This document shows, piece after piece, positions 4,301 through 28,392 of a stretch of 30,992 nt of DNA. A program made the position numbers and the translations under genes. Source of the DNA: Prevotella sp. UBA7594. GTDB taxonomy: Bacteria > Bacteroidota > Bacteroidia > Bacteroidales > Bacteroidaceae. The DNA lies in the NCBI GenBank assembly GCA_002490315.1, contig DLKG01000012.1, positions 1 to 30,992 of the forward strand. The letters are read 5' to 3'. Position 1 is the first letter of the stretch; the number at the start of each line of letters is the position of its first letter. The notes under the pieces were generated by a model that saw only the letters and a list, made by a program, of their open reading frames with translations, was not told the origin of the DNA and did not search any database.

Positions 4301-5448
4301 TTGTTGCCGTCGTTGGTGTATATGGAGCGTATACGGTTGGCAATGATGTTGGCAGGCAGTATGAGTGTCTTTTTGAACAGCGGTGTCTGTGTGTTGATAT
4401 GGAAGATGCCGTTGTTGAACGTCTGCGCCCAGATATTGCCCTTGCCGTCGGTGCGTATGTCGGTTACGTTTTTCAGTATATAGCTCTTGTCGGTGTCGCC
4501 GATGGTGTTGTAGTAAGTGAAGCCCGCTTTCATGTCTTTCTCGTCGAGCACTCCGATTCCGTAGCGCGAGCACGTCCATATCGTGTGTGTCACCGGGTCG
4601 TGTATGACTCGGTAGTTGATGTCGGTGTTCTTGTCGCCGTTGTTCATGTCGACGAGTCCCGGTTCGCGTTGGCTCATCGGGCGGGTCATGCACTTTATGC
4701 CTCCGCCCCAAGTGCTTATCCATAGCCGTCCGTGCGGGTCGAACATCAGCTCATAGGTTTTCACCGACTGGTCGTTGACGGGCAGGTCGTATTTGTACAT
4801 AGTGTGCCGGCGTCGGTCGAATCGGTAGAGCGATTTCGACCATGTGCCGATGAATATGTTGCCGTGCTTATCCTCGGCAAACGACTTGGCTTTGATATCT
4901 TCCCATCGTATGCGCTTGCCGTCGGTACCTACAATGGTGGTGTTCTTCTTGCCGTAGTATGTGAATTGCCGCGTCTTGGGGTCGACGCTCTTCACTCCGT
5001 CGTCGGTGCCTATCCACACCGTTCCGTCGCGGGATGTGAACAGGGCGTAAATCTCGCGGCTGTGCTCGGTCTTCAGGTGATAGGTGTTGAAGTGTCCGCG
5101 TCGCTTGTCCATGCACACCAGTCCGTTGCGTGTGCCTATCCACAGACAGTTGTCATGGTCTTCGGTCATCGACAGCACCGCGTTGTTTGGCAGTATGTTT
5201 GGCGTTGTCGCGTCGCTGCGGTAGGATGTGAACCGGTAGCCGTCGTATGACTTCACGCCGGAGTTGGTGCCCATCCACAGCAGTCCCTGGCTGTCGATGA
5301 GCATGCATTTCTGCTCTACCGAAGCCGGCGGCATGATGGTGTTGATTAACCGGATATTAGGAACCGCAGCTGTTGCATAGACAGCTGTCATGAGCAAAAT
5401 GCCGTTAAAAAATATTCGTCTAAATAAATTGATTCTATTTGGTTTCAT
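1348..5448 (-). CDS. Hybrid two-component system regulator (HTCS): periplasmic sensor, histidine kinase, receiver and AraC DNA-binding domain in one protein
   Basis: This 1366-residue protein is a typical full-length HTCS, which senses a specific oligosaccharide in the periplasm and activates its PUL. A signal peptide or N-terminal anchor covers residues 1-28. About 14 two-component-propeller repeats follow (residues ~35-700; recurring motifs such as LLWMGTNSGV and NCLWIGTRNGLV), then a Y_Y_Y domain (~720-797). One membrane span (~803-824) precedes the kinase, whose H-box is FTNITHELLTPLT with His849 as phospho-acceptor. The ATPase N-box NLLSNAVKYS lies near 960 and the G-box GTGIGLSLV near 1017. 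The receiver motif VVTDVMMPVMDG places the acceptor at Asp1164. An AraC helix-turn-helix fills ~1266-1366. A low-complexity A/S/T/P linker joins kinase and receiver. It is transcribed away from susC across a shared spacer, so susCD and the downstream enzymes are its likely targets. The ligand is unknown. Confidence 0.97.
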   Translation of the reverse strand: MKPNRINLFRRIFFNGILLMTAVYATAAVPNIRLINTIMPPASVEQKCMLIDSQGLLWMGTNSGVKSYDGYRFTSYRSDATTPNILPNNAVLSMTEDHDNCLWIGTRNGLVCMDKRRGHFNTYHLKTEHSREIYALFTSRDGTVWIGTDDGVKSVDPKTRQFTYYGKKNTTIVGTDGKRIRWEDIKAKSFAEDKHGNIFIGTWSKSLYRFDRRRHTMYKYDLPVNDQSVKTYELMFDPHGRLWISTWGGGIKCMTRPMSQREPGLVDMNNGDKNTDINYRVIHDPVTHTIWTCSRYGIGVLDEKDMKAGFTYYNTIGDTDKSYILKNVTDIRTDGKGNIWAQTFNNGIFHINTQTPLFKKTLILPANIIANRIRSIYTNDGNNFWLTLAPAGIATYNAQTGRTLFNTDIPGMAALPTSAINSHMSSIAMANDGSLWFANNSYGITVWKDGNTHTYDITNCKFVKDNFVKALCRTRRGIMFVGERHHLNWITPGGLTFSLGKDIEVSGISEDSKGNIWVATENCGIIRLSGDFTRPATLKKEYFNPQHANFVVNDAIYVFEDSQHRVWATSNSGGLFRLNSKTQSFDNMNDELHWDLDRVFSIKEDLQHRLWLTTDDALVCLSLDKKGKAHYTTFTSENGLGDMIFMPSSCFRLGNMLYFGAGRNIISVNSSMVNDDNKLALPNMIVTSIIIDGERYADLDSTMQQRLGDATPQYARKLTIPASVGKFAVEFALLSYINTDKCKYAYFLEGYDRDWHYVDADVRQASFENIPSGTYKLHLKASDSYGRWTELPYSISIHVLPPWYASPWAYLIYICIIIGGIYAAILWYRDRLRTKNRLQMAVVFTNITHELLTPLTVISASADSIEGEHPELKDRTSLIHNNINRLTRMLRQILEVRKAQAGKLQLKVSEGKLGDFCKETCESIVPIFSQKRLTFNQHINCLGTTAWFDSDKIEKIIYNLLSNAVKYSNEGGSVTINVDIDGNKATIIVADTGIGISKEKMRHLYSRFLDGDYRRMNTMGTGIGLSLVRDLVKLHHGHIDCESEVGKGTKFTITMPIDRNSYNDEEIAKNTTDMTVEPSGSSVQAAQAAASATQSTPATSSAPMQPAATNESKEYSILLVEDNSELLQLMSSLLTPYFKVHTAANGERAQRLIEKTALDIVVTDVMMPVMDGIELTRWIKQSEDYAQLPVIMLTAKTQGDDRNEGYRAGADAYLTKPFNLDDLRLRVENIIKNRERIRQWFQQQTDFDIEEQHYSSPEKIFVENVIAKIMEHITDSDYGREQLAADMCISSSSLYNKLRATTGQNITSFISSIRLKEACRILRQQPDIRINELSFRVGFSTPRYFSQCFKKEFGMTVKEYVEQMKE

Positions 5449-5841: not shown

Positions 5842-8800
5842 ATGGAACAAACGTTCTTATTGACAGCTGCGCGGAAAGCAATGCTTGTCGGGTTCTTGAC
5901 AGCAGTTCCCGCATTCAGTCTACCGTCAGTGGCAGACACACTTCAGTCTTCAAACATCCAGCAACAGTCTGGCAAAGTTAAGGGTAAGGTTTTCGACTCA
6001 AATGGCGAGGCCGTTATCGGTGCTTCTGTCAAGATTGTAGGACAGAAGAACAGTGGCACCATCACCGACATCGACGGCAACTTCACCATCGACGCGAAGA
6101 ATGGTCAGACCCTCGAAATCTCATATATAGGTTATAAGCCGAAAACCGTAAAGGTGAACGGTGCCAGCCTCACCGTAAAGCTTGAGGACGACGCACAACT
6201 CCTCAACGACGTGGTGGTTGTAGGCTACGGCACCATGCGCAAGAAAGATCTCACCGGTAGCGTGTTGCAGATCAACCCCGAGAAGTTTGCTAACGAGAAT
6301 CCCGGAACCGTGCAGGATCTTCTTCGTGGCACACCGGGTTTGAACGTAGGCTACAGTGCCGACGCTAAGGGCGGTGGCTCGATGCAGATTCGTGGTCAGC
6401 GTTCTGTTTATACCGACGGCGGCCACAACGACCCGCTCATCATCCTCGACGGTATGGCTTTCTACGGCGAGCTCTCGGAAATCAATCCTGACGACATCGG
6501 TCAGATTGACGTATTGAAGGATGCTTCTGCAGCAGCCGTATACGGTGCAAAGGCTGCCAACGGCGTTATCATCGTCACTACTAAGAAAGGTAAGCTTGGC
6601 AAGCCGACCGTCAACGTGAGCGCAAACCTCGGTATCAACACCAAGAGCGACTACACAATGGACGTGTACAGTCCGTCGGGCTACATGAAGTTCCGCGAGG
6701 ACTGGTACAAGGCCACAACCTACGGTATGGGCGACGACGGTGTGTATGGCGCATACAAGGGAAAAGACGGCAAGGGTAACCTTATACAGCAGCCTGGCTA
6801 TTATGACACTGCCGAGAACGCACAGCGTCTGTATGGCGTCGACCAGGCCACATGGGCAGCATACAGCAAGAATGCCGACGGCGAGTCGATGGCAAGCATC
6901 TACGCACAGCGTCTCGGACTGCGCGACAACGTGCTGCAGAACTATCTCGACGGCAACACTGTCGACTGGTGGGACAAGACATTCCGCACGGGTATCAACC
7001 AGGACTACAACGCAAGCATCTCGGGTGCAAGCGAGACAATGAATTACTATATGTCGGCTGGCTTCCTGCGCAACGAGGGTGCCGTGAAGGGTAACGAATA
7101 TCGCTCGATACGTGCCAACATGAAAGTGTCGGGCAAGGTCACAAAGTGGCTTGAGATTGGTGCCAACGTCAACTTCCAGGACCGCTCTGACGGTGACATC
7201 TCCGTAGGTCTCGGCACCAACTACTGGGACAACAACCAGCTGCGCAACTCGCCATTCTCTACCTACCGCAACGAGGACGGCACGCTGGCACAGTATCCTA
7301 TGAACCAGAACGATTACGGTGGCTACAGCTACGACTTCGAGCGTCAGTATCTCGACCTTGAGAAGGGCTACCAGGTGCTCAATACTATCTTCAACGCCAA
7401 GGTTACGCTGCCGTTCGGCATCACCTACGCTTTCAATGCGTCGCCGCGCTACCAATATTACTACAACCGCTACTTCATGTCTGCCGACCGTCCTAACACC
7501 AACGCTCAGGACCGTGGCGTAGACCGTGGATGGGGCAAGCGCTTCGACTGGTCGCTCAACAACACCATCACTTGGGACCACACCTTCGCAAAGAAGCATC
7601 ACGTCATCCTCACCCTCGTGCAGGAGGCAGAGGAGCGCCGCTACTGGAGCGATAATATCTCGGCACGCGAGATTCTTCCGTCCGATGCTCTTGGATTCCA
7701 CAACACGCAGAACGCGACACTCGAGAAGAGTAGCTTCTCTACAAACGACACCCACCAGACTGCCGATGCTCTTCTCGCACGCTTGTTCTATAGCTACGAC
7801 GACCGCTACATGATTACAGCTTCCGTACGTCGCGACGGCTACTCGGCATTCGGTAACAACAACCCATACGCCACATTCCCGTCAGTGGCTCTCGGATGGT
7901 CGTTCACCAACGAGAAGTTCTGGAAGTGGAGCGACATAATGAACACCGGTAAGCTGCGCCTCTCTTGGGGTAAGAACGGTAACCGCTCGCTCTCAGACCC
8001 GTATGTGGCTCTTGCCGATCTCGCTTCGGGCACAGGCAAGACAATGAACTACCTCACCGGCGGCAACATCGTCGACATGAAGTACCTCAGCGTGAACCGC
8101 TTGGCAAATCCTAACCTCCAGTGGGAGAAGACAGAGGCCATCAACGTAGGTCTCGACTTCGGATTCCTCAACGACCGCATCACAGGTAGCATCGACTATT
8201 ACCACATGATGACCAAGGACATGATTATGAACCAGCGTCTGCCGGGATTCACTGGCTTCGGAAGCATCACCACCAACTTGGGACAGGTGAACAACGACGG
8301 TCTTGAGGTTTCTATCAACTCGCTCAATATCAAGGAGAAGAACTTCGAGTGGCGCACAAGCTTCGGTCTCTCTTGGAACAAGAATACCATCAAGAAGCTC
8401 TACGGCACCTACGAGGACGTGCTCGACAAGAACGGCAACGTAGTAGGACGCAAGGAGTCGGACGACCTCACCAACGGTTGGTTCATTGGCAAGTCTATCG
8501 GCACCATCTGGAACTATGAAGTGACTGGCATCTGGCAGACCGACGAGTATGAGGAGGCAGCCAAGTACGGACAGCGTCCGGGCGACCCGAAGGTATGGAA
8601 CAACCCTGACAACGACCAGTACAACGAGGATGGAACTGTGAAGAAGATTGTATACGGCAACGAGGACAAGAAGTTCCTCGGACAGACCACTCCGAAGGTG
8701 CGCTGGAGCCTGCGCAACGACTTCACCATCTTCAAGAACTGGAGCATCGGCATCAGCATGTACTCGCTCATGGGACACAAGAGTCTCTCAGGCTGGTATC

Positions 8801-9156
8801 TCAACAACGACAACGGCGGCTCGCTCGTCACAAAGCAGTGCAACACATGGGTGAAGGGCTACTGGACACCGGAGAACCCGACCAACAAGTACGCTCGTCT
8901 TGACGCACAGGGACCGACCGGAGCAACCGGAGCACAGAAGCTCATCAACCGCTCGTTCGTTCGTTTCGACAACCTCTCTGTTGCCTACACCTTCCCGAAG
9001 GAGTGGCTCGCCTCTACAGGCATCAGCCGTCTGAAGCTGTTCTTCAACATCAAGAACCTCGGCACTATCCACTCTTCCGACTGGGAGTATGGCGACCCCG
9101 AGACAGCAGGTCTCGCAACACGCACCTACACCTTCGGTATGAACATAACGCTCTAA
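5842..9156 (+). CDS. susC: SusC-like TonB-dependent outer-membrane glycan transporter
   Basis: The 1104-residue protein imports oligosaccharides across the outer membrane using TonB energy and forms a lidded complex with the SusD lipoprotein. A signal peptide covers about the first 31 residues. A carboxypeptidase-regulatory-like domain follows (~45-115; GKVFDSNGEAVIGASVKIVG). The SusC TonB-box segment LNDVVVVGYGT ends near residue 131. The plug domain carries LRGTPGLNV and VLKDASAAAVYGAKAANG (~155-250), and the rest is a 22-strand-type barrel ending in RTYTFGMNITL. Length and motif order are normal for the family. susD starts 31 bp downstream, so the two are surely co-transcribed. No surface-glycan-binding (SusE/F-like) lipoprotein gene follows, which is a little unusual for a PUL of this size. 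Confidence 0.97.
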   Translation: MEQTFLLTAARKAMLVGFLTAVPAFSLPSVADTLQSSNIQQQSGKVKGKVFDSNGEAVIGASVKIVGQKNSGTITDIDGNFTIDAKNGQTLEISYIGYKPKTVKVNGASLTVKLEDDAQLLNDVVVVGYGTMRKKDLTGSVLQINPEKFANENPGTVQDLLRGTPGLNVGYSADAKGGGSMQIRGQRSVYTDGGHNDPLIILDGMAFYGELSEINPDDIGQIDVLKDASAAAVYGAKAANGVIIVTTKKGKLGKPTVNVSANLGINTKSDYTMDVYSPSGYMKFREDWYKATTYGMGDDGVYGAYKGKDGKGNLIQQPGYYDTAENAQRLYGVDQATWAAYSKNADGESMASIYAQRLGLRDNVLQNYLDGNTVDWWDKTFRTGINQDYNASISGASETMNYYMSAGFLRNEGAVKGNEYRSIRANMKVSGKVTKWLEIGANVNFQDRSDGDISVGLGTNYWDNNQLRNSPFSTYRNEDGTLAQYPMNQNDYGGYSYDFERQYLDLEKGYQVLNTIFNAKVTLPFGITYAFNASPRYQYYYNRYFMSADRPNTNAQDRGVDRGWGKRFDWSLNNTITWDHTFAKKHHVILTLVQEAEERRYWSDNISAREILPSDALGFHNTQNATLEKSSFSTNDTHQTADALLARLFYSYDDRYMITASVRRDGYSAFGNNNPYATFPSVALGWSFTNEKFWKWSDIMNTGKLRLSWGKNGNRSLSDPYVALADLASGTGKTMNYLTGGNIVDMKYLSVNRLANPNLQWEKTEAINVGLDFGFLNDRITGSIDYYHMMTKDMIMNQRLPGFTGFGSITTNLGQVNNDGLEVSINSLNIKEKNFEWRTSFGLSWNKNTIKKLYGTYEDVLDKNGNVVGRKESDDLTNGWFIGKSIGTIWNYEVTGIWQTDEYEEAAKYGQRPGDPKVWNNPDNDQYNEDGTVKKIVYGNEDKKFLGQTTPKVRWSLRNDFTIFKNWSIGISMYSLMGHKSLSGWYLNNDNGGSLVTKQCNTWVKGYWTPENPTNKYARLDAQGPTGATGAQKLINRSFVRFDNLSVAYTFPKEWLASTGISRLKLFFNIKNLGTIHSSDWEYGDPETAGLATRTYTFGMNITL

Positions 9157-9187
9157 ACCAATAACTCAATTTAAAAGCATATTCATT

Positions 9188-11185
9188 ATGAAAACCAATA
9201 TAGTTAAGCATATAGCAATGGGACTCGCCGTGGTAGCCGGAATGTCTACAATGTCAAGCTGCTCGCGCGACTTCCTCGACCCGGATCCTCTGTCAATATA
9301 TGAGCCTGGCAAGACATTCTCCACAGAGTCTGGCCTGCAGGCTGCGCTCGCAATGGCCGACCGCTCGCTCTGCAACAACTACACATACTACAACAACAAG
9401 AACCTCTCTTGTCCGATCGCCACGGAGTATATGATGTCCGACCTCATGGTATACGGCAAGACAGACCAGGGCGGCGGCATCTGGGACGATATCAACAAGA
9501 AGCTCACGCCTACCAGTGGTATGCAGGAGAACGACAACAACTACATTATGTTCTACTGGGACCAGGGCTACACAGGCATCAAGTATGCCAACACCGTGCT
9601 GTCTTACATCGACGGTGTGCAGGGACTCTCCGAGGAGAAGAAGAACGAGTATAAGGGTCGTGCTCTGTTCCACCGTGCCTATCGCTACTACAACCTCTGT
9701 TGGCAGTGGGGCGACGTGCCATTGGTGACGAAGATCCTTGAGGTGCCTAAGCAGAACTACAAGTCGACAAAGCGCGATGCCATCCTCCGTATGTGTGTGC
9801 ACGACATGGAGCAGGCTGTAGAGTGGGTTCCGTCGCAGAAGCAGATGTCTACCATCGGTATGGTCAACAAGGAGGCTTGCCGTATGCTCCTCGCCAAGCT
9901 CTATCTGTCTGTAGGCGAGTGGAAGAAGGCTGAGCAGCAGTGCGACGAGCTTATCAACAACTCGGGCCTCGCTCTTATGCAGCAGCCTTTCGGCAGCGCT
10001 GAGGATGCCGAGGGCGGCGAGCCTGAGACATGGAAGATCACACGCAACGTCATCTGGGACCTTCACCGTCCGGTGAACAAGTATCGTTCGGACAACACCG
10101 AGACCATTCTCGCCATGCTCAACATCAGCGACCAGCGCCATGTCGACTATCTCACAATGCGTATCTTCGGTCCGAGCTGGAGCGACGACAAGCGCTTGAA
10201 GACTCCCGACGGCATGAGAGCAGGTATCAACTATGCCCGCAACGACTCTAAGTACCGCAAGGACCACGACCTTCTGCGTGCCTTCGGACGCGGCATCGGT
10301 GTGTTCCGTCCCACAGCATGGTCGCAGCACACCATGTGGGAAGTGAACGGCGTGGAGGACAACGAGGATCTTCGCCACAACTCTAAGGTGGGCAACTGGG
10401 TTCACATGACCGACCTGAAGTATAACAACGAGGGCTCTGAGTACGACGGCAAACCATTCCAACTCTTCGATGAGAACGGGACATGTCTCAGCTCCGACAC
10501 CATCCGCAACTGGTATGACTTCCCTCTCTACAAGATTTACTTCAAGGACGCTTCTGCCGAGCAGAATCTTGGCGCAACACAGTTCAACGGCTGTACGAAG
10601 GGTACTGACGGCACTCTCTATCTCTACCGTCTTGCCGAGGCTTATCTCGTACGTGCCGAAGCCAAACTCTATCAGGGCGATGCCACTGGCGCAGCCGAGG
10701 ATGTGAACACTATACGTAGACGTGCCAACTGCTCACAGCTCTACACTACTGTCAACATTGGCGACATCATGAACGAGCGTGCCCGCGAGCTTTACCTTGA
10801 GGAGTGGCGCAACGTGGAGCTGACACGTGTCAGCTACGACCTCGCACTCAGCGGCAAGCCCGACGAGTGGGGCAACACCTACGACGTGAACACATGGGAC
10901 AAGCAGGAAGGTACAGAGCTTACCGGCGGTAGCTACTGGTATCAGCGTTGCGTGAACTATTCTTACTATAACCAGCCTTACGGACACAACATCAAGAGCG
11001 GTCCTGCAACTCTCAACTACACCATGAACAAGAACAACGTGTTCTGGCCGATACCTGACGGCGCTATCACAGCCAACCGCTATGGCAAGCTCATGCAGAA
11101 CTACGGCTACTCTGGCTACGACCCGTCTGTACAGGAGTGGGACAATTGGGAGGATGCCGTTGCCGATGAGGACAAGACAGAGTAA
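9188..11185 (+). CDS. susD: SusD/RagB-like outer-membrane glycan-binding lipoprotein
   Basis: This 665-residue lipoprotein captures glycans at the cell surface and caps the SusC barrel. The lipobox TMSSC puts the lipidated residue at Cys25, followed by SRDFLDPDPLS, a usual SusD start. The SusD N-terminal region with its TPR-like helices shows RALFHRAYRYYNLCWQWGDVPLV (in part, ~155-178). The RagB/SusD C-terminal domain includes YLYRLAEAYLVRAEA and the closing NNVFWPIPDGAITAN. The length is at the upper end for SusD proteins, which implies extra loops around the binding face. It is the second gene of the susCD unit; a short hairpin and a strong terminator follow within 115 bp. Confidence 0.96.
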   Translation: MKTNIVKHIAMGLAVVAGMSTMSSCSRDFLDPDPLSIYEPGKTFSTESGLQAALAMADRSLCNNYTYYNNKNLSCPIATEYMMSDLMVYGKTDQGGGIWDDINKKLTPTSGMQENDNNYIMFYWDQGYTGIKYANTVLSYIDGVQGLSEEKKNEYKGRALFHRAYRYYNLCWQWGDVPLVTKILEVPKQNYKSTKRDAILRMCVHDMEQAVEWVPSQKQMSTIGMVNKEACRMLLAKLYLSVGEWKKAEQQCDELINNSGLALMQQPFGSAEDAEGGEPETWKITRNVIWDLHRPVNKYRSDNTETILAMLNISDQRHVDYLTMRIFGPSWSDDKRLKTPDGMRAGINYARNDSKYRKDHDLLRAFGRGIGVFRPTAWSQHTMWEVNGVEDNEDLRHNSKVGNWVHMTDLKYNNEGSEYDGKPFQLFDENGTCLSSDTIRNWYDFPLYKIYFKDASAEQNLGATQFNGCTKGTDGTLYLYRLAEAYLVRAEAKLYQGDATGAAEDVNTIRRRANCSQLYTTVNIGDIMNERARELYLEEWRNVELTRVSYDLALSGKPDEWGNTYDVNTWDKQEGTELTGGSYWYQRCVNYSYYNQPYGHNIKSGPATLNYTMNKNNVFWPIPDGAITANRYGKLMQNYGYSGYDPSVQEWDNWEDAVADEDKTE

Positions 11186-16209: not shown

Positions 16210-18096
16210 ATGTATCTACGCAGAATATTATTGTTGATAGCGATGGTCGGGGCGTTTGCCGGCGCAGTCGCCCAAGAGCGCTTCTCACCGTTTCCCGACG
16301 CATCGTCCTCCTATTGGCGCAAACATATTCCCCGTGCCATGCGTGATGACTACATTCGTTTGGGGCGTGAGAACGTGGCGCAGCCGTGGACGAGAATACC
16401 CGACAACGTGTTTGCCGAGTTCCGCACAACGGGCAACCGCATCAACTATGAGGACAAGTGTTTCGCCGTGCGTCGACGCCTGGCTTGCCTTGTCATGGCA
16501 GAGATAATGGAGCATCGCGGCAGGTTCATGCCTTCGATAGCCAAAGGACTCCACTATTTCCTCGACGACGAACCTTGGTGGGGGCTGCCAGCCCACTATC
16601 CCAAGGCGCAGCCCGACTCTGCAGTGCAGGTGGTCGATCTCTTCAATGCCGAGACTTCGTCGATGCTCGCATGGACAATCTACATGCTTGGCGATGAAAT
16701 AAACCGCACGGAAGCGGGACTGGCAGGGCGTGTGCGCGGTGAGATAGTGAGACGGTTCATACGTCCCACGCTCAACGAACGTCAGGGATGGATGCAGAAT
16801 GCCAACAACTGGAACACGTGGATAACGAGCAACTTCCTTGAATGTTCACTCCTTTGTCTTGAAAGCGGAACCCGTGAGCGCGGTGCTGCTCTTCGCACGG
16901 TCGAGGCATGTATGCGCCTGTTTCTTAAAGGCTATCCCGACGACGGCGGATGCGAGGAGGGCGTAGGCTACTGGGACAGGGCAGGGGCATCGTTCTTCGA
17001 GTCGTTGTGGATGCTGCGTGCTGCCGAGCCGTCGCTCACCGCGACCGACCACCGATACGTTCTCACTACGGCTGAACAGGAAAAGGTGGCTGCCATGGGA
17101 CGGTTCATCACCACGATGCACATCAGCGACCTCTCGTTCGTAAACTTCTCCGACGCACAGGTGCACAATGTGCCGAACATAAACATCCTTTTCCCCTATG
17201 GAACGTGGATTGGCGACAACGGCATGAAGGAGTTTGCTGCCTATATAGCCAAGAAGTACGACTATTTCGGCAAGCCATCGACACTCTTCCTGCAGTCGGG
17301 CAACTGGCCTACGCTCAACCGTGAGCTGATGCTCCTCTCCATGCTCCCGCAACTGCGCGATGCCAAGGCTGCGCAGCCGACAACGCGCGACGCATGGCTC
17401 GCCAACTCGCAGGTGATGGTGGCACGCAATGCCGACTGGCTTGTAGCTGCCAAGGGCGGCACCAACGGCGAGAGCCACAACCACAACGACATCGGCAACT
17501 TCATTGTCTATCACAACTCCCAGCCCGTCGTCATCGACCTCGGACGCGATACCTACACGTCGCAGACATTCAGCCAGCGACGCTTCGAGCTGATGAACAA
17601 CCGTTCCATGTATCATAATGTGCCGCTCGTAAACGGTTTTGAGCAACACGACGGACGGCAGTATCGCGCCTCGGGAGTGTGGCACAACGCCAACGACACC
17701 GCCTCCGTCTTCTCCCTCGACATTGCCAAGGCTTATCCCGAAGAGGCAGGCGTAGACAAGTGGCGACGCACCATAACGCTCAACCGCAAGCGTGACTGTG
17801 TGGAAATCGCAGAGGATTGTGCCACTGGCGACGGTTGCAACCAAGCGGTGCTAATGTGCTATGGCAAACCAGATTTGCTTTTGCCAGGCCGTGTGGCGCT
17901 TGCTGACGGCAGCGTCACGCTGGTATACGATGCCGGCAAGGCTGTGGTGTCGTGGGAGAAGGTGGCAATGAACGACGGCATAATGAAGACGCAGTGGAAA
18001 GACAATGTATACAGGATTGTGCTGACTGTCAACGGTGGTGTGGCATTGTTTGACTACAGGTTTGAGCAGCCGCTTATCTCACAGAAAAGGAATTGA
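16210..18096 (+). CDS. Heparinase II/III-like secreted protein, probable polysaccharide lyase
   Basis: The 628-residue protein has a signal peptide (1-21, ending AVA). It shows the two-part heparinase II/III architecture: an alpha/alpha toroid (~30-375) with NANNWNTW (Asn199-Asn200) and the Tyr-containing CEEGVGYWDRAG (~248-259), then a beta-sandwich domain (~395-628) opening with GGTNGESHNHNDIGNF, in which His423 and His425 are conserved. Related lyases (PL12, PL15, PL17, PL21 folds) cleave next to uronic acids by beta-elimination and leave a 4,5-unsaturated uronate. That is the substrate of the GH105, KduI and KduD proteins encoded downstream, so it may be the entry enzyme of the pathway. 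I cannot assign a PL family or substrate; heparin itself is unlikely beside arabinosidases. A leader of about 80 bp follows the MITE-like element. Confidence 0.82.
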   Translation: MYLRRILLLIAMVGAFAGAVAQERFSPFPDASSSYWRKHIPRAMRDDYIRLGRENVAQPWTRIPDNVFAEFRTTGNRINYEDKCFAVRRRLACLVMAEIMEHRGRFMPSIAKGLHYFLDDEPWWGLPAHYPKAQPDSAVQVVDLFNAETSSMLAWTIYMLGDEINRTEAGLAGRVRGEIVRRFIRPTLNERQGWMQNANNWNTWITSNFLECSLLCLESGTRERGAALRTVEACMRLFLKGYPDDGGCEEGVGYWDRAGASFFESLWMLRAAEPSLTATDHRYVLTTAEQEKVAAMGRFITTMHISDLSFVNFSDAQVHNVPNINILFPYGTWIGDNGMKEFAAYIAKKYDYFGKPSTLFLQSGNWPTLNRELMLLSMLPQLRDAKAAQPTTRDAWLANSQVMVARNADWLVAAKGGTNGESHNHNDIGNFIVYHNSQPVVIDLGRDTYTSQTFSQRRFELMNNRSMYHNVPLVNGFEQHDGRQYRASGVWHNANDTASVFSLDIAKAYPEEAGVDKWRRTITLNRKRDCVEIAEDCATGDGCNQAVLMCYGKPDLLLPGRVALADGSVTLVYDAGKAVVSWEKVAMNDGIMKTQWKDNVYRIVLTVNGGVALFDYRFEQPLISQKRN

Positions 18097-20986: not shown

Positions 20987-22129
20987 ATGAAGAAGATATT
21001 TCTATTTATCATATCTCTGTTGGCGGTTCTCCCGTCAATGGCCAAGACTTGGACTCCCGACCAGGTGAAGGAGCTCATAGCACGTGTGAACACCTACTGG
21101 CAGCAGAACAACAAGGTTGAGGTGCGCTCCTTCTGGGACAACGCAGCCTATCATACGGGCAACATGGAAGCCTACAAACTATTGAAGGACGACAAGCAGC
21201 TCGACTATTCGCTGCGCTGGGCATACTACAACAACTGGAGCGGAGCCACCGAGGCCGACCCGCGCCGCTGGAAGTATGCCACATACGGCGAAGGCAAGGA
21301 CTTCGTGCTCTTCGGCGACTGGCAGGTTTGCTTTCAAACTTATATCGACCTCTACAACCTCGCTCTTGCCAACGGCGGCACCGATGCCGACAACTCTTTC
21401 ATGGTGAAGCGTGCCAAGGAGGTGATGCACTACGAGGCTTACTCGAAGAACAACGACTACTGGTGGTGGAGCGATGCTCTCTACATGGTGATGCCGGTGA
21501 TGACAAAGATGTACAAGCTCACGGGTGATGCGCGGTATCTCGACAAACTATATGAGAACCTGCTCTATTCCGACAGCATAATGCTCGACGCTGAGACGGG
21601 CTTTTATTATCGCGACGCTCGCTACGTCTATCCCAAGCACAAGAGCGTGAACGGCAAGAAGGATTTCTGGGCACGTGGCGACGGATGGGTGCTCGCCGGA
21701 CTCGCCAAGGTGCTCCAGGATATGCCGAAGGACTACAAGCACTACCAATTCTTTGTTGACAAGTTCCGCCGCCTTGCCGACATTGTGGCAAAGACACAGC
21801 AGAAGGAGGGCTACTGGACTCGCTCCATTATGGATGCCAACCATGCTCCCGGACCTGAGACAAGCGGTACGGCTTTCTTCACCTACGGCATCCTCTGGGG
21901 TGTGAACAACGGCTTCCTTGCAAAGAAGGACTACAAGAAATGTATCGACCGCGCATGGCAGTACATCTCCGAGACAGCGGTACAGGCCGACGGCAAGGTG
22001 GGCTACGTGCAGCCTATCGGCGACCGTGCCATCCCTGGACAGACTGTCGATGCCAACTCACAGGCCAACTTCGGAGTGGGTGCTGTGCTTCTTGCTTCCT
22101 GCGAGTATTACAGATACATTGCCAAGTAA
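20987..22129 (+). CDS. GH105 unsaturated glucuronyl/galacturonyl hydrolase
   Basis: The 380-residue enzyme has a signal peptide (1-19, PSMA) and the GH105 (alpha/alpha)6 fold. The family hydrates the double bond of a 4,5-unsaturated uronic acid at the non-reducing end of lyase products, and so releases the uronate as 5-keto-4-deoxyuronate. The acid candidate is Asp163 in WWWSDALYMVMP. A second conserved patch is DFWARGDGWVLAGLAKVL (227-244); many GH105 enzymes have RGNGW here, so the Asp232 form marks a sub-clade. PETSGTAFFTYGILWG (~289-304) is also typical. The length is normal. The secreted location means that unsaturated uronate would be set free in the periplasm, upstream of the kduI step. 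Confidence 0.9.
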   Translation: MKKIFLFIISLLAVLPSMAKTWTPDQVKELIARVNTYWQQNNKVEVRSFWDNAAYHTGNMEAYKLLKDDKQLDYSLRWAYYNNWSGATEADPRRWKYATYGEGKDFVLFGDWQVCFQTYIDLYNLALANGGTDADNSFMVKRAKEVMHYEAYSKNNDYWWWSDALYMVMPVMTKMYKLTGDARYLDKLYENLLYSDSIMLDAETGFYYRDARYVYPKHKSVNGKKDFWARGDGWVLAGLAKVLQDMPKDYKHYQFFVDKFRRLADIVAKTQQKEGYWTRSIMDANHAPGPETSGTAFFTYGILWGVNNGFLAKKDYKKCIDRAWQYISETAVQADGKVGYVQPIGDRAIPGQTVDANSQANFGVGAVLLASCEYYRYIAK

Positions 22130-22189
22130 AAAACAGAAGTTTGTCTTTTGCGGATAATTACAGCTTTAGTAAATAAAAGCAATAACGAA

Positions 22190-23416
22190 ATGTTGAAAAA
22201 TATCAAATCACTTCTTGTCATATTCTCCCTGTTTTGTGCAGAGGAACTTCCTGCCAAAGTTGTGTTGTCGGCTACCAACACGTCTGCTGTGCAGCGTAAT
22301 GAGGTGGTAGCTTTTGATGCTGCAGATGTGATGAAGCGTCTCGGTACAGCATCGCTCTCACAGATTGTGGTGAAGGATTCGTACAACCAGCCTGTTGCCT
22401 ATCAGCTCACTCACGACGGAAAGTTGCTTGTCGAAGCCAGTGTGCGTCCTCATGGGGTGGCGCATTTTGTGGTGGAGCCGGGCATTAAGCAGCAGTTTCG
22501 CAGTTATGTCGACGGATATTTCTCACACTGGCGTGCCGATGATTTCACTTGGGAGAACGACCTTTGTGCCTACCGTGCCTATGGTCCTGCCCTTCAGCGT
22601 AGCGGAGAGAAGGCGTTTGGGTTTGACGTATGGATGAAGTCGACCTCCGAACTTGACGTGCGCCGCCGCTACCAGTTGCATCGCGAGGCTTGCGAGGAGC
22701 GTGATGAGCTGCGCCGACAGGGACGACAGTCGGAAGTGGATTCTCTGTTTGACACAAAATCGTTCCATGTAGACCACGGACGCGGGCTCGACTGCTACAG
22801 TGTCGGTCCGAGTCTTGGCTGCGGTACACCGGCAATAATGCTTGGCGACAGTATTGTAATGCCTTGGGCATTCAAGGACTATAAGGTCTTGGACAACGGT
22901 CCGCTGCGCATCACATTCGAACTTGTCTATCCGGAAGTGGATATAAATGGCCAACATGTGACGGAACATCGTGTGATAACTCTTGACAAGGGCTCACATT
23001 TTAACAAACTTACTGTTTGGTATGATGGTCTCACACATCCCGCAACAGTTTGCAGTGGAATGGTTATGCATACAGAAGAATCTGCCGACCTCACTCTTGC
23101 CAAGGATTATGTGGCTTATTGCGACCCGACCGATTCGCCCGACCGGCACAACTTCCAAATTTATGTCGCTACGGTTTATCCCGGCGGTGTGGACAAAACA
23201 CGCACGGTTAAAGATGCCTTGCACAGAAAGCAGGGCATAGTAGGCAATGCCGTCGGCATCAAGCGCGGATTGAAGGGCGGTGAGCAATGGACTTACTGGT
23301 TTGGCGCATCATGGTGCAAGAGTGCGACAGCCGACAAGGCGGCATGGCTTCAGCAAATCCGTACATTTATAGACAACAGCAAGGCACCAATACAGACTGC
23401 TGTCCTGCAAGAGTGA
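22190..23416 (+). CDS. DUF4861 family secreted protein of unknown function
   Basis: I chose the ATG at 22190 because the 408-residue product then starts MLKNIKSLLVIFSLFC, a plausible signal peptide; an in-frame ATG at 22148 would add 14 unconserved residues. The sequence matches what I know of DUF4861 (PF16153), a beta-rich family common in Bacteroidota PULs for pectin and other uronates. Conserved-looking patches are FTWENDLCAYRAYGPAL (~119-135), FGFDVWMK (143-150) and SFHVDHGRGLDCYSVGPSLG (191-210). The last is rich in His and Asp, which suggests a metal or active site. It lies between GH105 and kdgK, so a role on free or terminal unsaturated uronate, such as ring opening or mutarotation, is possible. 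That is speculation; no activity can be read from the sequence. Confidence 0.78.
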   Translation: MLKNIKSLLVIFSLFCAEELPAKVVLSATNTSAVQRNEVVAFDAADVMKRLGTASLSQIVVKDSYNQPVAYQLTHDGKLLVEASVRPHGVAHFVVEPGIKQQFRSYVDGYFSHWRADDFTWENDLCAYRAYGPALQRSGEKAFGFDVWMKSTSELDVRRRYQLHREACEERDELRRQGRQSEVDSLFDTKSFHVDHGRGLDCYSVGPSLGCGTPAIMLGDSIVMPWAFKDYKVLDNGPLRITFELVYPEVDINGQHVTEHRVITLDKGSHFNKLTVWYDGLTHPATVCSGMVMHTEESADLTLAKDYVAYCDPTDSPDRHNFQIYVATVYPGGVDKTRTVKDALHRKQGIVGNAVGIKRGLKGGEQWTYWFGASWCKSATADKAAWLQQIRTFIDNSKAPIQTAVLQE

Positions 23417-23468: not shown

Positions 23469-24491
23469 ATGGCAAAGATTATAACACTTGGCGAGATAAT
23501 GCTCCGCCTTTCACCCGACGGCAACGACCGTTTCATCCAGACCGACCATTTCCGCATTATTCCCGGAGGTGGTGAGGCAAACGTGGCTGTGAGTCTCGCT
23601 AACTACGGCCATAACGCCTATTTCGTGAGCAAACTCCCGAAACATGAGATAGGGCAGATCGCCGTCAACGCATTGCGTCGCTATGGTGTCGACACACGAT
23701 ACATAGCTCGTGGCGGCAACCGTATCGGACTCTATTATGCCGAGACGGGGGCGTCGATGCGTCCATCAAAGGTTATCTACGACCGTGCCAACTCGTCTAT
23801 CGCTGAGGCTGATCCATCCGACTTCGATTTCGACGCCATTATGGATGGCGCACAGTGGTTTCACTGGAGTGGCATAACACCTGCAATAAGCGACAAGGCA
23901 GCACTGCTCGTCAAGTTGGCTTGCGAGGCAGCCAAGCGCCACGGCGTGACGGTGAGCGTCGACCTCAACTTCCGCAAGAAACTGTGGACATCGGAGAAGG
24001 CTATCTCTGTGATGCGCCCGCTGATGCAGTATGTCGACGTGTGCATAGGCAACGAAGAGGATGCGCAGCTCTGCCTCGGCTTCAAGCCCGATGCCGATGT
24101 GGAGGGAGGAAAGACCGACGCGAGCGGCTATCACAAGATTTTTGAGCAGATGCAGCGTGAGTTCGGCTTCAAGTATGTTGTCTCAACATTGCGCGAGAGC
24201 CATTCTGCCACACACAACGGCTGGAAGGCACTTATATATAATGGTAAAGACTTCTACGAGAGCCGCCACTACGACATCATGCCTATCGTCGACCGTGTGG
24301 GTGGTGGCGACTCGTTCTCAGGCGGACTTATCCATGGACTCCTTACGAAGGAGACGCAAGGCGAGGCCCTGGAGTTTGCTGTGGCTGCCTCGGCATTGAA
24401 GCATACAGTCAACGGCGACTTCAATCTTGTCTCGGCTGATGAGGTTGAGGCTTTGGCGGCAGGCAATGCCAACGGCAGGGTGCAGAGATAA
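23469..24491 (+). CDS. kdgK: 2-keto-3-deoxygluconate kinase (PfkB family)
   Basis: The 340-residue cytoplasmic kinase phosphorylates 2-keto-3-deoxy-D-gluconate (KDG) to KDPG. It has the PfkB fold: the N-terminal ITLGEIMLRLSP, the substrate-binding GGGEANVAVSLANYG (33-47) and the C-terminal signature DRVGGGDSFSGGLIHGL with the catalytic base at Asp281. GGGD instead of the common GAGD is usual in KdgK proteins. IGLYYAETGASMRPSKVIYD matches the KDG-kinase subgroup. There is no signal peptide, unlike the four upstream gene products. It begins 52 bp after the DUF4861 gene and ends 33 bp before the aldolase gene, so the two-step KDG-to-pyruvate unit is contiguous. Confidence 0.93.
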   Translation: MAKIITLGEIMLRLSPDGNDRFIQTDHFRIIPGGGEANVAVSLANYGHNAYFVSKLPKHEIGQIAVNALRRYGVDTRYIARGGNRIGLYYAETGASMRPSKVIYDRANSSIAEADPSDFDFDAIMDGAQWFHWSGITPAISDKAALLVKLACEAAKRHGVTVSVDLNFRKKLWTSEKAISVMRPLMQYVDVCIGNEEDAQLCLGFKPDADVEGGKTDASGYHKIFEQMQREFGFKYVVSTLRESHSATHNGWKALIYNGKDFYESRHYDIMPIVDRVGGGDSFSGGLIHGLLTKETQGEALEFAVAASALKHTVNGDFNLVSADEVEALAAGNANGRVQR

Positions 24492-24524
24492 TTTTTGAAA
24501 CATATTTTAATACTGAATTTGATT

Positions 24525-25193
24525 ATGGCAAGATTCAACAAACAGCAGGTACTCTCGAAGATTGTTTCCACCGGAATGGTGCCTGTGTTCTATAATAAAG
24601 ATGTCGAGACAGCCAAGCGCGTTGTCAAGGCTTGTTACGACGGTGGAGTGCGTGCATTTGAGTTTACCAACCGTGGCGACTTTGCCCATGAGGTGTTTGC
24701 CGAGGTGGTGAAGTTTGCAGCCGTGGAGTGTCCCGACTTGGCAATGGGTGTGGGCAGCGTTGTCGATGCCCCGACGGCAAGTCTGTACATACAGCTTGGG
24801 GCTTGCTTTGTTGTCGGTCCGTTGTTCAATCCTGATGTGGCAAAGGTGTGCAACCGCCGCCTTGTGCCTTACACGCCGGGATGCGGTTCGGTGACAGAGG
24901 TGGGCATGGCCCAGGAAGTGGGCTGCGACCTTTGCAAGGTGTTCCCCGGCGATGTACTCGGCCCGAAGTTCGTAAAGGGATTGAAGGCTCCAATGCCATG
25001 GTCGCTCATCATGGTGACGGGTGGCGTGTCGCCCGACGAGGAAAACCTCACGGCATGGATCAAGGCTGGTGCCACATGTGTGGGCATGGGCTCCAAGCTG
25101 TTCCCAAAGGATGTCGTGGCTGCCGGCGACTGGCAGAAAGTGAGCGACAAGTGTCGTGAGGCTCTTGGCTATATAGCCAAGGCACGTGGGTAG
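24525..25193 (+). CDS. kdgA: KDPG/KHG aldolase
   Basis: The 222-residue class I aldolase cleaves 2-keto-3-deoxy-6-phosphogluconate to pyruvate and glyceraldehyde-3-phosphate. I take the ATG at 24525 because [13 protein letters not shown] is the usual start; the in-frame ATG at 24495 would add ten hydrophobic residues overlapping the ribosome-binding region. Glu46 in AFEFTNRG and the Schiff-base Lys138 in [10 protein letters not shown] are present, as are [11 protein letters not shown] and [13 protein letters not shown]. It lacks a signal peptide and follows kdgK directly; the EIIC gene starts 24 bp later. The symbol eda would serve equally well. Confidence 0.93.
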
Positions 25194-25217: not shown

Positions 25218-26582
25218 ATGGAACATGTTTTCAGTTATATAATCAGTCTTGGAGCGCCCGTGATGATGCCTATTCTGTTCACAGTAATAGGTCTGTGCAT
25301 AGGCTTGGGCTTCGGGCGCTCGCTCAAGTCGGGACTCTATGTCGGTGTGGGCTTCGTCGGACTGGGTCTCGTTACTGCCCTGCTGACCAACCACTTTGGC
25401 GACCCGCTGGCAGAGATATCCGAGATATACAGTCTCCAGCTCAAGGTGTTCGACATGGGGTGGCCGGCGGCGGCATCCGTAGCATACAACACGGCGGTGG
25501 GTGCGCTCATCATTCCCGTGTGCCTCGGCATCAATTTCCTGATGCTTGTCACGAAGACCACGCGCACCGTCAACATCGACCTTTGGAACTACTGGCACTA
25601 TGCCTTCATTGGTGCAGTGGCGTATTTCGTCATGGGCAACAGTCTGGCATGGGGATATTTCGCAGCCATCGTGTGCTACATCATCACACTCGTCATGGCA
25701 GACCTCACAGCCGAGCGCTTTCAGGGTTATTACAAAAACCTTGACGGCATATCCATACCGCAGCCGTTCTGCCAGAGTTTCGTGCCGTTTGCCGAGGTGA
25801 TATGCCGCCTGCTCGACCGCATACCGGGCTTCTCGCGCCTCGACATCGATGCCGAAGGCTTGAAGCGCAAGTTTGGCGTGCTTGGCGAGCCGCTTGTGCT
25901 TGGCGTGATAGTGGGCGTACTGATAGGAGCACTGGCATGTCTCGACGTGAAGCAGATACTGTCGCTTGGCGTGACGATGGGAGCCGTCATGGAGCTCATT
26001 CCGCGCATCACGCGCCTCTTCATCGACGGCCTGATGCCCGTGTCGGAAAAGACAAAGGAAGTGGTTGCACGCCACTTCAAGGGCAAGAAGGTGTTCATCG
26101 GCATGAGTCCGGCATTGGTGATAGGTCATCCCACGACACTTGTCGTGTCGCTCCTGCTCATCCCCGTGATGCTCGGGCTTGCCGTAGTGCTGCCCGGCAA
26201 CCAGTTCTTGCCGCTTGCCTCGCTTGCCGGCATGTTCTATGTGTTTCCGATGGTGTTGCCGGTGACAAAGGGCAATGTCGTAAAGACATTCACCGTAGGT
26301 CTTGTGGCACTCGCGATAGGACTCTATTTCGTCACCGACATGGCTCCCGATTTCACCCTCGCTGCCAATGCCGTGTACGACGCCACGCAGGATGCGGCAG
26401 CCAACATTCCCGACGATTTTGACGGCGGCGCACTCGATTTTGCCTCGTCGCTTCTCGGATGGAGCATCTACAAGCTCGTGTGCTATGGCAAGTATGTCGG
26501 CGCAGCTGTGCTTGTGGTAGTGACACTGGGCTTGATGGCATACAACAGAAAGAAGATAATAGAAGAAGAAAAACAACAGTAA
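25218..26582 (+). CDS. Orphan galactitol-type PTS EIIC (GatC-like) membrane permease
   Basis: The 454-residue protein has about ten or more membrane segments and is a clear relative of the galactitol EIIC family (PF03611). It shares with E. coli GatC the pattern of [15 protein letters not shown] (~37-51), [16 protein letters not shown] (~117-132), [15 protein letters not shown] and the late [19 protein letters not shown] and [17 protein letters not shown] proteins normally work with EIIA and EIIB, which phosphorylate the sugar on entry. Neither partner is encoded in this window, and Bacteroidota generally lack a sugar PTS. So it probably acts as a non-phosphorylating carrier. Wedged between the aldolase and kduI genes (4 bp to kduI), it is the natural candidate to import a keto-deoxy-uronate. 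The family is certain; the substrate is inferred. Confidence 0.9.
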
Positions 26583-26586
26583 AGAC

Positions 26587-27504
26587 ATGAAAAAGATATT
26601 CATCACAGCCGCTATGGCGATAATGTCGCTGACGGCAATGGCTCAGACCACCAATTTCCAGGTGCGCTGGGCCAATCATCCGGAGGACGCTAAGCACTAT
26701 GACACGAGCCGTCTGCGCAAGGAGTTTCTCATCGAGAAGGTGTTTGCCCCCAACGAGGTGAACTGGACCTACACCATGTACGACCGCTTCCTGATAGGTG
26801 GTGCCGAGCCGGTGGACGCTCCCATAGAGCTGAACCCTATTGAGCCGCTGCGTGCCAAGACCCTGCTTGAGAACCGCGAGCTTGGCATCATCAATATCGG
26901 TGGTCCCGGCATCGTCTCTATCGACGGCAAGGACTACGACCTCGGCTTCGAGGAGGGAATATACGTGGGACGCTCCACAGAGAAGAACCCCAACCGTGTG
27001 GTGCTCAAGAGCAAGGATGCGAAAAATCCTGCTAAGTTCTATATGAACAGTGCCACTGCCCACATGTCGTATCCCGTGAAGCGCGTCACGCTGAAGGAGG
27101 CAAAGAACATCAAGGCTGGCAGCCAAGCCGAGAGCAACGACCGCGTCATCCATCAGCTCATCATCAACGGTGTGGCAGGTGTACGCACATGCCAGCTTCA
27201 GATGGGTGTGACGGAACTGAAGACGGGCTCGGTGTGGAACACGATGCCTGCGCACACCCACTTGCGCCGCATGGAGACCTATCTCTACTTCAATGTGCCC
27301 GACGGACAGCGCATCTGCCACATCATGGGTGAGCCGCAGGAGACACGCCCGATGTGGATGAGCAACGAGCAGGCTGTCATCTCGCCGCAATGGTCGATAC
27401 ATTGTGCCGCCGGAACAAGCAACTACACGTTCATCTGGGGTATGGCGGGAGAGAATCTCGACTATGGCGACATGCAGGTGGTGAAGACCACCGACCTGAA
27501 GTAA
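26587..27504 (+). CDS. kduI: 5-keto-4-deoxyuronate isomerase (KduI) with an apparent signal peptide
   Basis: KduI interconverts 5-keto-4-deoxyuronate and 3-deoxy-D-glycero-2,5-hexodiulosonate. The bicupin sequence is very close to the family: [49 protein letters not shown] and [19 protein letters not shown]. The metal ligands are His223, His225, Glu230 and His272. In E. coli KduI they are 196, 198, 203 and 245, so every one is shifted by exactly 27, and the length is 305 against 278. The extra N-terminus, [20 protein letters not shown], has a charged start, a hydrophobic core and AMA before Q: a signal peptide. The family member in E. coli is cytoplasmic, so this one looks periplasmic. The start is supported by the 4-bp gap to the EIIC stop. 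The next internal Met that would remove the core is Met18, leaving AQTTNF. Confidence 0.94.
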
Positions 27505-27542
27505 GCGGTACTTTATGCCATACCCTCCTACAGATTGCCGCT
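27505..27542. repeat. Degenerate hairpin element between kduI and kduD
   Basis: AGCGG and CCGCT at the edges (27504-27508 and 27538-27542) bracket ATGCCATACCCTCCTAC (27515-27531). The latter differs by one base from 27... the equivalent 17-mer at 5642-5658 in the susC spacer. It therefore belongs with that repeat and starts right at the kduI stop codon. The kduI-kduD gap of 87 bp is one of the longest in the operon. Confidence 0.5.
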
Positions 27543-27591
27543 CATATTTAAAGATAATTCAGAACAAATACCCATAAATATAAATAAAAAT

Positions 27592-28392
27592 ATGGACATG
27601 GACAAAATGTTTTCGCTTGAGGGCAAGGTAGCCCTCGTGACGGGTGCCGCCTACGGCATCGGTTTCGCAATGGCTGAGGCTCTGCACAACGCTGGTGCAA
27701 AGATCGCCTTCAACTGTCGCTCGCAGCACCACATGGATCAGGCTCTCGCCGACTACAAGGCAAAGGGCATCGACGCGCGTGGATACATCTGCGACGTGAC
27801 CGACGAGGTTCAGGTGAAGAAGATGGTGGCAGACATCGAGAAGGAACTTGGCGTGATAGACATCCTCGTCAACAACGCCGGCATCATCAAGCGTATTCCG
27901 ATGGAAGAGATGAGCGTGGAGGACTTCCGAGAGGTGGTGGACATCGACCTCAACGCTCCGTTCATCGTGTCGAAGGCTGTCATCCCCGGAATGAAGAAGA
28001 AGGGACATGGCAAGATTATCAACATCTGCTCTATGATGTCGGAACTTGGACGCGAGACAGTATCGGCATACGCAGCCGCAAAGGGAGGACTGAAGATGCT
28101 CACGCGCAACATCTGCTCGGAGTTCGGCGAGTACAACATACAGTGCAACGGCATCGGCCCGGGCTACATCGCCACTCCACAGACAGCTCCGCTGCGTGAA
28201 CGCCAGGCCGACGGTAGCCGTCATCCGTTCGACAGTTTCATCGTGGCAAAGACTCCGGCGGCTCGCTGGGGTACGCCTGAGGACCTGATGGGACCGGTTG
28301 TCTTCCTCGCGAGCGATGCCTCCAACTTCGTCAACGGACATATTCTTTATGTCGACGGTGGCATACTTGCATATATCGGCAAGCAACCTTAA
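27592..28392 (+). CDS. kduD: 2-deoxy-D-gluconate 3-dehydrogenase / diketo-uronate reductase (KduD), SDR family
   Basis: The 266-residue cytoplasmic short-chain dehydrogenase reduces 3-deoxy-D-glycero-2,5-hexodiulosonate to KDG with NAD(P)H. I use the ATG at 27592 (MDMDKMFSLEGK) because the cofactor fold begins at residue 10; the open frame reaches back to 27535, but that part is AT-rich and overlaps the repeat after kduI. The glycine motif is TGAAYGIG (17-24), NNAG is at 94-97, and the catalytic residues are Ser147, Tyr160 and Lys164 (SAYAAAKGG). GPGYIATPQTAPLR and NGHILYVDGGILAYIGKQP are typical of KduD. No signal peptide is seen, so the KduI product must reach the cytoplasm first. It is the last gene before a long hairpin. 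Confidence 0.94.
   Translation: MDMDKMFSLEGKVALVTGAAYGIGFAMAEALHNAGAKIAFNCRSQHHMDQALADYKAKGIDARGYICDVTDEVQVKKMVADIEKELGVIDILVNNAGIIKRIPMEEMSVEDFREVVDIDLNAPFIVSKAVIPGMKKKGHGKIINICSMMSELGRETVSAYAAAKGGLKMLTRNICSEFGEYNIQCNGIGPGYIATPQTAPLRERQADGSRHPFDSFIVAKTPAARWGTPEDLMGPVVFLASDASNFVNGHILYVDGGILAYIGKQP

Follow-up and report, generated by a model that had tools for sequence, protein, structure and literature searches.

KduI, the 5-keto-4-deoxyuronate isomerase, is usually placed in the cytoplasm. The enzyme encoded in the window, by which we mean the whole stretch of 30,992 nucleotides that was analysed, carries a predicted signal peptide and is very likely periplasmic, and the molecule that the cell imports is probably the isomerised keto-acid, DK-II, as judged from gene content and gene neighbourhood. 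In the explanation that we regard as the best and consider likely to be correct, KduI would leave the cytoplasm by the Sec route and be cut by signal peptidase I before Gln20. In the periplasm, a GH88/GH105-type hydrolase, perhaps together with a heparinase-like protein, would yield a 4,5-unsaturated uronate, which would open to 5-keto-4-deoxyuronate (DK-I or DHU, the aldehyde form), and KduI would convert DK-I to the diketo-acid DK-II at the same location. DK-II, and not DK-I, would traverse the inner membrane; its most likely route is the orphan EIIC-GAT protein encoded next to KduI, which would operate independently of PTS phosphorylation. The cytoplasmic enzymes KduD/DhuD, KdgK and Eda would complete the pathway. 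Exported KduI is a variant of a known pathway, and the first-pass annotation, which had proposed the export from the letters of the window, was right in its main point, which is now better supported than the sequence alone had shown.

The open reading frame at 26587–27504 (+) translates into a 305-residue precursor and is a genuine KduI by its curated family score (395.6 bits with NF002091, whose cutoff is 250), in addition to its PF04962 domain. The AlphaFold model, computed with 34 sequences, reached a mean pLDDT of 77.8 and a pTM of 0.82. The model displays an isolated helix of low pLDDT at residues 3–16, with the strands of the KduI fold starting from residue 21, and is of low confidence near residues 195–201 and 222–226, the latter being the metal site. 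A Foldseek search with the model returned KduI1 and KduI2 of Bacteroides ovatus as the best matches, followed by the Lactobacillus and Escherichia coli KduI structures; the match to 9kcz has an E-value of 3.9e-34 and a TM-score by target of 0.93.

The four metal ligands, His223, His225, Glu230 and His272, are encoded within 27253–27402 (+) and align with His196, His198, Glu203 and His245 of E. coli K-12 KduI, confirming the constant offset of 27 that had been noted before; the total lengths (305 and 278 residues) differ by the same number. The accompanying claim that the 27 extra residues are a clean N-terminal addition does not hold, as Met1 of the E. coli enzyme aligns with residue 24, and the difference is made up of 23 N-terminal residues and a net 4 from three internal indels. 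The E. coli enzyme (b2843; PDB codes 1x8m and 1xru) resembles the window KduI in family, fold and the four ligands, and its 278-residue domain aligns over the full length. It differs in lacking a signal peptide, in having kduD directly adjoining, and in having no EIIC gene among the nine features of the 10 kb compared. The ligands are retained in 115, 114, 114 and 114 of the 115 exported copies described below.

The predicted signal peptide occupies codons 1–19 (26587–26643, +), with cleavage before Gln20. It comprises a charged n-region, a hydrophobic core and the residues A-M-A before the glutamine, and obtains a score of 5.28, so that the signal peptide claimed at first pass is borne out by a rule-based measure. 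The window KduI has the n-region, h-region, A-x-A motif and Gln at +1 of a Sec/signal peptidase I substrate, and the isolated helix 3–16 of the model coincides with this segment. According to the abstracts of two papers (PMC5837995, PMC10653852), signal peptidase I of Bacteroidetes exposes a glutamine that later becomes pyroglutamate, the so-called Q-rule, and the A-x-A|Q arrangement at the KduI cleavage site fits it. A lipoprotein processed by signal peptidase II was considered and rejected, since the +1 residue is Gln20 and not Cys.

The scorer is rule-based and was made for this analysis, with a threshold of 4 for the exported class and 3.2 in the controls. Within the window, it found the hydrolases, the lyase-like protein and the DUF proteins to be outside the inner membrane, the proteins expected there scoring 4.2–6.3, and detected no signal on KdgK, Eda, KduD or an ABC ATPase; the EIIC membrane protein received a false 4.45 that stems from an internal TTG at codon 30. 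Controls of the cytoplasmic type were negative at 3.2 (KdgK 0/20, Eda 0/18, ABC ATPase 0/11), and those of the exported type were mostly positive (SusC 23/30, DUF4861 33/42, SusD 8/14, GH88 4/7). False positives at 3.2 amounted to 22 of 136 KduD and 8 of 94 EIIC frames, and to 11 and 6 at 3.8. The scorer errs when the wrong start is chosen or when a hydrophobic strand or transmembrane segment lies near the start, and it misses some expected positives.

An error in the start codon would make the protein an ordinary cytoplasmic KduI translated from Met10, Met13 or Met18, a reading to which we attach very little probability. Some database records do begin downstream, P0005 at Met10 and P0053 at the equivalent of Met13. 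However, the lysine-containing start, the hydrophobic core and the A-x-A|Q site are common to 109 distinct signal sequences, and this reading is rejected on the conservation of the start and of the cleavage site. The kduI ATG, moreover, lies just 4 bp past the upstream stop, and the non-exported copies have open codons (median about 11) ahead of the aligned start.

KduI copies were collected by NF002091 searches, which exceeded the cutoff in 98 of 395 genomes sampled from the phylum, in 167 of 301 genomes from a single family and in all 16 genomes with named loci. The DNA surrounding many of the copies was read, and a set of 259 was reduced to 224 distinct ones by collapsing those identical in their last 240 residues, a step by which L077 dropped out as a duplicate of L123. 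The first-pass annotation had named an absence of signal scores across homologues as counter-evidence; this was not seen, as 115 of the 224 distinct copies were classed as exported by the rule-based scorer, with 109 different signal sequences among them. The motif [AGS]|Q is found at positions 15–31 in 113 of the 115. Over 2000 sampled pairs, the likeness was 41% in the N-terminal stretch and 67% in the mature part. A further copy, L141, was removed from the 116 that scored at least 4, its value of 4.45 being a false one caused by a hydrophobic stretch upstream of the usual start. Six copies scoring between 2 and 4 were classed as not exported (L092, L126 and L130 at 3.5–3.6; L108, L133 and L013 at 2.2–2.8), so that the non-exported set consists of 102 clear and 6 intermediate copies. 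L141, because of its false signal, and L164, because of its truncation by the contig, were left out of the residue counts and of the careful tree.

In that tree (IQ-TREE, 63 rows), the exported copies form one group with a single change and a support of 79/69, with non-exported copies of the same family as neighbours. In the FastTree tree of all 224 rows, the exported group had a support of only 16 and two changes were needed, because the contig-truncated L164 was labelled signal-less; the IQ-TREE subset was picked without L164. The distribution of the signal is explained by a single gain, with or without a single loss, which amounts to about one origin; many independent origins were looked for in the trees and not found. 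The linkage counts given below are thus not independent events, but reflect the repeated retention of one arrangement. A second, non-exported KduI is present in about 19 genomes, often with KduD and a DUF4861 gene; G417, in which the start of the second copy is disrupted, is on the list, and G439, whose L141 is of the non-exported kind, is not.

Two solved structures from B. ovatus correspond to the two groups of KduI. KduI2 (PDB code 9kd0) belongs to the exported clade, like the window enzyme, and is near-identical to L146, a precursor with a signal. The crystallised chain has the predicted mature glutamine at its residue 2 and begins at the predicted mature end, from which the depositors seem to have left the signal out. 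KduI1 (PDB code 9kcz) is a paralogue with the same fold that starts at MKTNYE, is signal-less and matches the non-exported copies. The title of 9kd0 refers to GAG metabolism; the window locus, by contrast, encodes GH43 and GH127 enzymes. A search of the open-licence literature for a paper on 9KD0 and 9kcz found none. Taken together, the conserved signal with its Q-rule site, the isolated helix at residues 3–16 and the start of the 9kd0 chain support the predicted export.

The window is a polysaccharide utilisation locus that includes GH43 and GH127 enzymes and a DUF2264 protein. A hybrid two-component regulator of the HTCS type lies at 1348–5448 (−; Reg_prop, Y_Y_Y, HisKA, HATPase_c, Response_reg and HTH_18 domains), and a SusC/SusD pair at 5842–11185 (+; PF07715, PF00593, PF07980, PF14322). 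A heparinase II/III-like protein with a signal peptide, a candidate lyase, is encoded at 16210–18096 (+; PF07940; 266.4 bits to PDB 8r73; signal score 5.94), and a GH88/GH105-type unsaturated uronyl hydrolase, also with a signal peptide, at 20987–22129 (+; PF07470, 265.3 bits; 511.7 bits to PDB 5noa; signal score 5.29). The latter enzyme would make the periplasm the site at which the unsaturated uronate is released. The gene at 22148–23416 (+) encodes a polysaccharide-utilisation protein of the DUF4861 (BT_3233) family (NF058564, 384.4 bits against a cutoff of 320) that is predicted to be exported from an ATG at codon 15 (signal score 4.21). It is followed by a PfkB-type sugar kinase without signal, a probable 2-keto-3-deoxygluconate kinase (23469–24491, +; PF00294, with NF041332 and NF040938 below their cutoffs), and by a KDPG/KHG aldolase (Eda), likewise without signal (24495–25193, +; NF005499, 378.7 bits against a cutoff of 275). 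Between 11431 and 22129, the heparinase II/III-like, DUF2264 and GH88/GH105-type proteins are encoded beside GH43 and GH127 enzymes, and the gene content suggests a plant glycan bearing arabinose and uronate as the substrate of the locus.

Downstream of kduI, a KduD/DhuD-type SDR reductase without signal peptide is encoded on the same strand (27535–28392, +), its translation probably starting at Met20 or Met22 within the open reading frame. It scores 496.6 bits with NF005488 (cutoff 369) and 227.6 bits with TIGR01832 for kduD, below the cutoff of 338.85. A reductase lies near 16 of the 73 exported-KduI loci that have wide flanks, the other 57 being without one nearby, and none of these 16 reductases has a signal by reading of its N-terminus. 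A reductase of the KduD/DhuD family is encoded in each of the 40 genomes with exported KduI that were tested, in 39 cases over the cutoff, and 80 of the 103 genomes with both EIIC and KduI have a single KduI match. Since KduI has a signal and the reductase has none, the inner membrane is predicted to separate the two, and the isomerised form has to pass through it if the reductase uses the product of KduI. The signal-less reductases, their presence throughout the genomes tested and the prevalence of a single KduI support the earlier proposal that isomerisation precedes the crossing of the inner membrane and changes the transport substrate.

The strongest evidence, which is absent from the first-pass annotation, is the coupling of exported KduI to an orphan EIIC-GAT gene. 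In the window, this gene (25218–26582, +) encodes a membrane protein of 454 residues with 12 hydrophobic peaks, some of them overlapping, and a PF03611 (EIIC-GAT) score of 242.2 bits against a cutoff of 24.2; it is a candidate for importing the isomerised keto-acid. The EIIC stop at 26582 and the kduI start at 26587 are 4 bp apart. Of the 115 exported copies, 113 are preceded on their own strand by an EIIC-GAT gene, at a median gap of 31 bp (range −17 to 234 bp, plus one of 810 bp). The two exceptions are L184, which is near a contig edge, and L145 of genome G588, in which EIIC is located elsewhere. Within the flanks read, no EIIC was found beside any of the 102 clear and 6 intermediate non-exported copies; for many of the 102 clear copies the flank extends to about 1.5 kb only, and 45 are flanked on each side by 4 kb or more.

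The same association is seen at the level of whole genomes. PF03611 exceeded its cutoff in 104 of the 301 genomes of the family, of which 101 have an exported KduI, adjoining EIIC in 99. The remaining three are incomplete: the genes of G622 and G648 lie at contig ends, and in G678 the EIIC match is partial and KduI is not matched. Conversely, no exported copy was found among the 66 genomes with KduI but without EIIC (39 read in sequence, 25 with an open frame too short for a signal, and 2 with fragments that are undecidable). In the phylum sample, EIIC exceeded the cutoff in 3 of 395 genomes, the same three that have an exported KduI, the other KduI copies being read in sequence or having open frames of at most 290 codons, too short for a signal; the restriction of the export to "this lineage", as it had been put, is correct as far as sampled. 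In an order-level sample, EIIC was over the cutoff in 10 of 393 genomes, and the six newly met all have a downstream KduI with an N-terminus that is signal-like by eye. An EIIC frame with in-frame stops stands next to an intact exported KduI in G447:C381 (L149), possibly an early loss or an assembly error. Two long matches, P0123 (677 residues) and P0048 (423 residues), were examined as EIIC–KduI fusions and proved to be self-repeats without fusion, probably assembly artefacts.

The window EIIC belongs to the same PF03611 family as the galactitol-specific IIC protein of the PTS (GatC; PDB code 9u82; 259 bits). GatC is a PTS permease, whereas the proteins of the window type occur without PTS IIB (PF02302), EIIA_2 (PF00359) or HPr (PF00381), each of which was matched in none of 40 related genomes with exported KduI and was matched in control genomes. 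A role as part of a PTS GAT permease is rejected for these genomes, and, barring unusual partners that escaped the searches, the EIIC has to function without phosphorylation by a PTS. In G588, where exported KduI and EIIC are apart, the EIIC match starts 55 bp after the reductase match, and in L267, L271 and L272 the gene order is KduD-EIIC-KduI. Both arrangements point to an EIIC that handles the substrate of the reductase. The orphan EIIC is the best candidate for a DK-II carrier and is perhaps that carrier, as far as neighbourhood allows us to infer. For a branch of Bacteroidota comprising Prevotellaceae and Bacteroides, we lean towards a general arrangement in which the DHU pathway would be split across the inner membrane, with an orphan, PTS-less EIIC-GAT as its dedicated DK-II importer.

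Other explanations accept the export of KduI and differ in what follows. DK-II might be made in the periplasm and enter through another carrier, for example of the MFS type, with EIIC carrying a different product of the same polysaccharides. We consider this unlikely, although 32 of the 73 exported-KduI loci with wide flanks have an MFS gene no more than 6.5 kb away, and the best NCBIfam match of one member is the D-galactonate transporter TIGR00893, below cutoff. An MFS gene is thus present in under half of the loci, against an upstream EIIC in nearly all exported copies; MFS genes also occur near 4 of 57 non-exported copies, none is among the open reading frames identified in the window locus, and in G588 it is EIIC that adjoins the reductase. 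The MFS proteins near exported KduI may carry uronates or share the transport role.

Two further alternatives concern the function of the exported enzyme, and we regard both as improbable. Side activities have been reported for E. coli KduI, and would allow the exported enzyme to act mainly on another periplasmic uronate, such as free galacturonate or glucuronate. Exported and other copies also differ at conserved positions, R75, P138, A147 and H228 in E. coli numbering, and with these clade-specific changes the substrate of KduI could have shifted. The window operon, however, pairs KduI with a KduD/DhuD-type reductase, a kinase and a KDPG aldolase, and contains no uronate isomerase and no mannonate or altronate enzyme among the identified open reading frames; the NF002091 equivalog score is well above its cutoff, and the depositors' title names 9kd0 as a KduI of GAG metabolism. 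Alternatively, KduI might serve mainly in the detoxification of DK-I, which bears an aldehyde where DK-II has none, and transport of DK-II would be secondary. Detoxification alone leaves the coupling to a single family of membrane proteins unexplained. Import of DK-II made by periplasmic KduI, most likely through EIIC, remains our preferred reading.

Passages of a review (PMC9067506) describe the import of unsulfated monomers into the cytoplasm, and the inner-membrane carrier of the keto-uronate from pectin or glycosaminoglycan breakdown in Bacteroidota is not named in those passages. The finding puts forward DK-II as a candidate molecule and EIIC-GAT proteins without a PTS as a candidate carrier family. 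It further offers a natural contrast, since some genomes have the exported form, some the other form and some both, and with these elements the question becomes testable by simple deletions. It also bears on annotation, which at present puts an exported enzyme into a cytoplasmic pathway, and the label "PTS galactitol subunit IIC" is likely misleading in these bacteria. If true, DK-II as a transport substrate and a PTS-less mode of EIIC would be features for which no description was found in the literature searched. Among the papers retrieved from the open-licence literature, no title or abstract opening states an exported KduI or a link between KduI and EIIC, which is no proof of absence, and "KduI" does not occur in PMC11784079.

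The closest described gene arrangement is that of the "type E" kduI-dhuD clusters of Bacteroidota, in which, according to the sections consulted of PMC12838403, kduI is followed by a DhuD-type reductase; the window has the same order, with both genes on one strand. Unlike the finding reported here, the main text of that paper contains the word "signal" 0 times and "periplasm" once, for D. dadantii, and its sections 5, 6 and 11 draw no link to EIIC.

Several minor features of individual copies were observed. L077, the second copy of G417, keeps the signal-coding sequence but has its start codon disrupted, with no EIIC in the 1.5 kb read, and looks like a decaying duplicate of an exported KduI. 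In the related copies L092, L097 and L126, the usual MKTNYE start is preceded in frame by a hydrophobic stretch, with marginal signal scores in L092 and L126; the stretch is probably untranslated, and these copies are treated as non-exported. In L006, L007, L009, L010, L012, L016 and L017, and in proteins of 320–327 residues, about 15 extra residues lie between the signal peptide and the KduI domain. An MFS carrier gene is located directly downstream of exported KduI in L009, L010, L146, L185–L190 and L195–L198, in several cases with a GH88/GH105-type hydrolase gene upstream. In L125, L132, L208, L209, L211 and L214, a non-exported KduI is followed by KduD and DUF4861, with no EIIC or MFS among the nearest genes. 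Exported and other copies cannot be told apart by their Cys content (means of 3.15 and 3.08, respectively). At position 228 (E. coli numbering), at least 95% of the non-exported copies carry His, compared with only 5% of the exported ones, which mostly have Leu, Val or Pro; the residue comparison used 108 non-exported copies (the 102 clear and 6 intermediate ones, plus L141 and minus L164). The shifts at this position, and also at 75, 138 and 147, may mark a changed active site.
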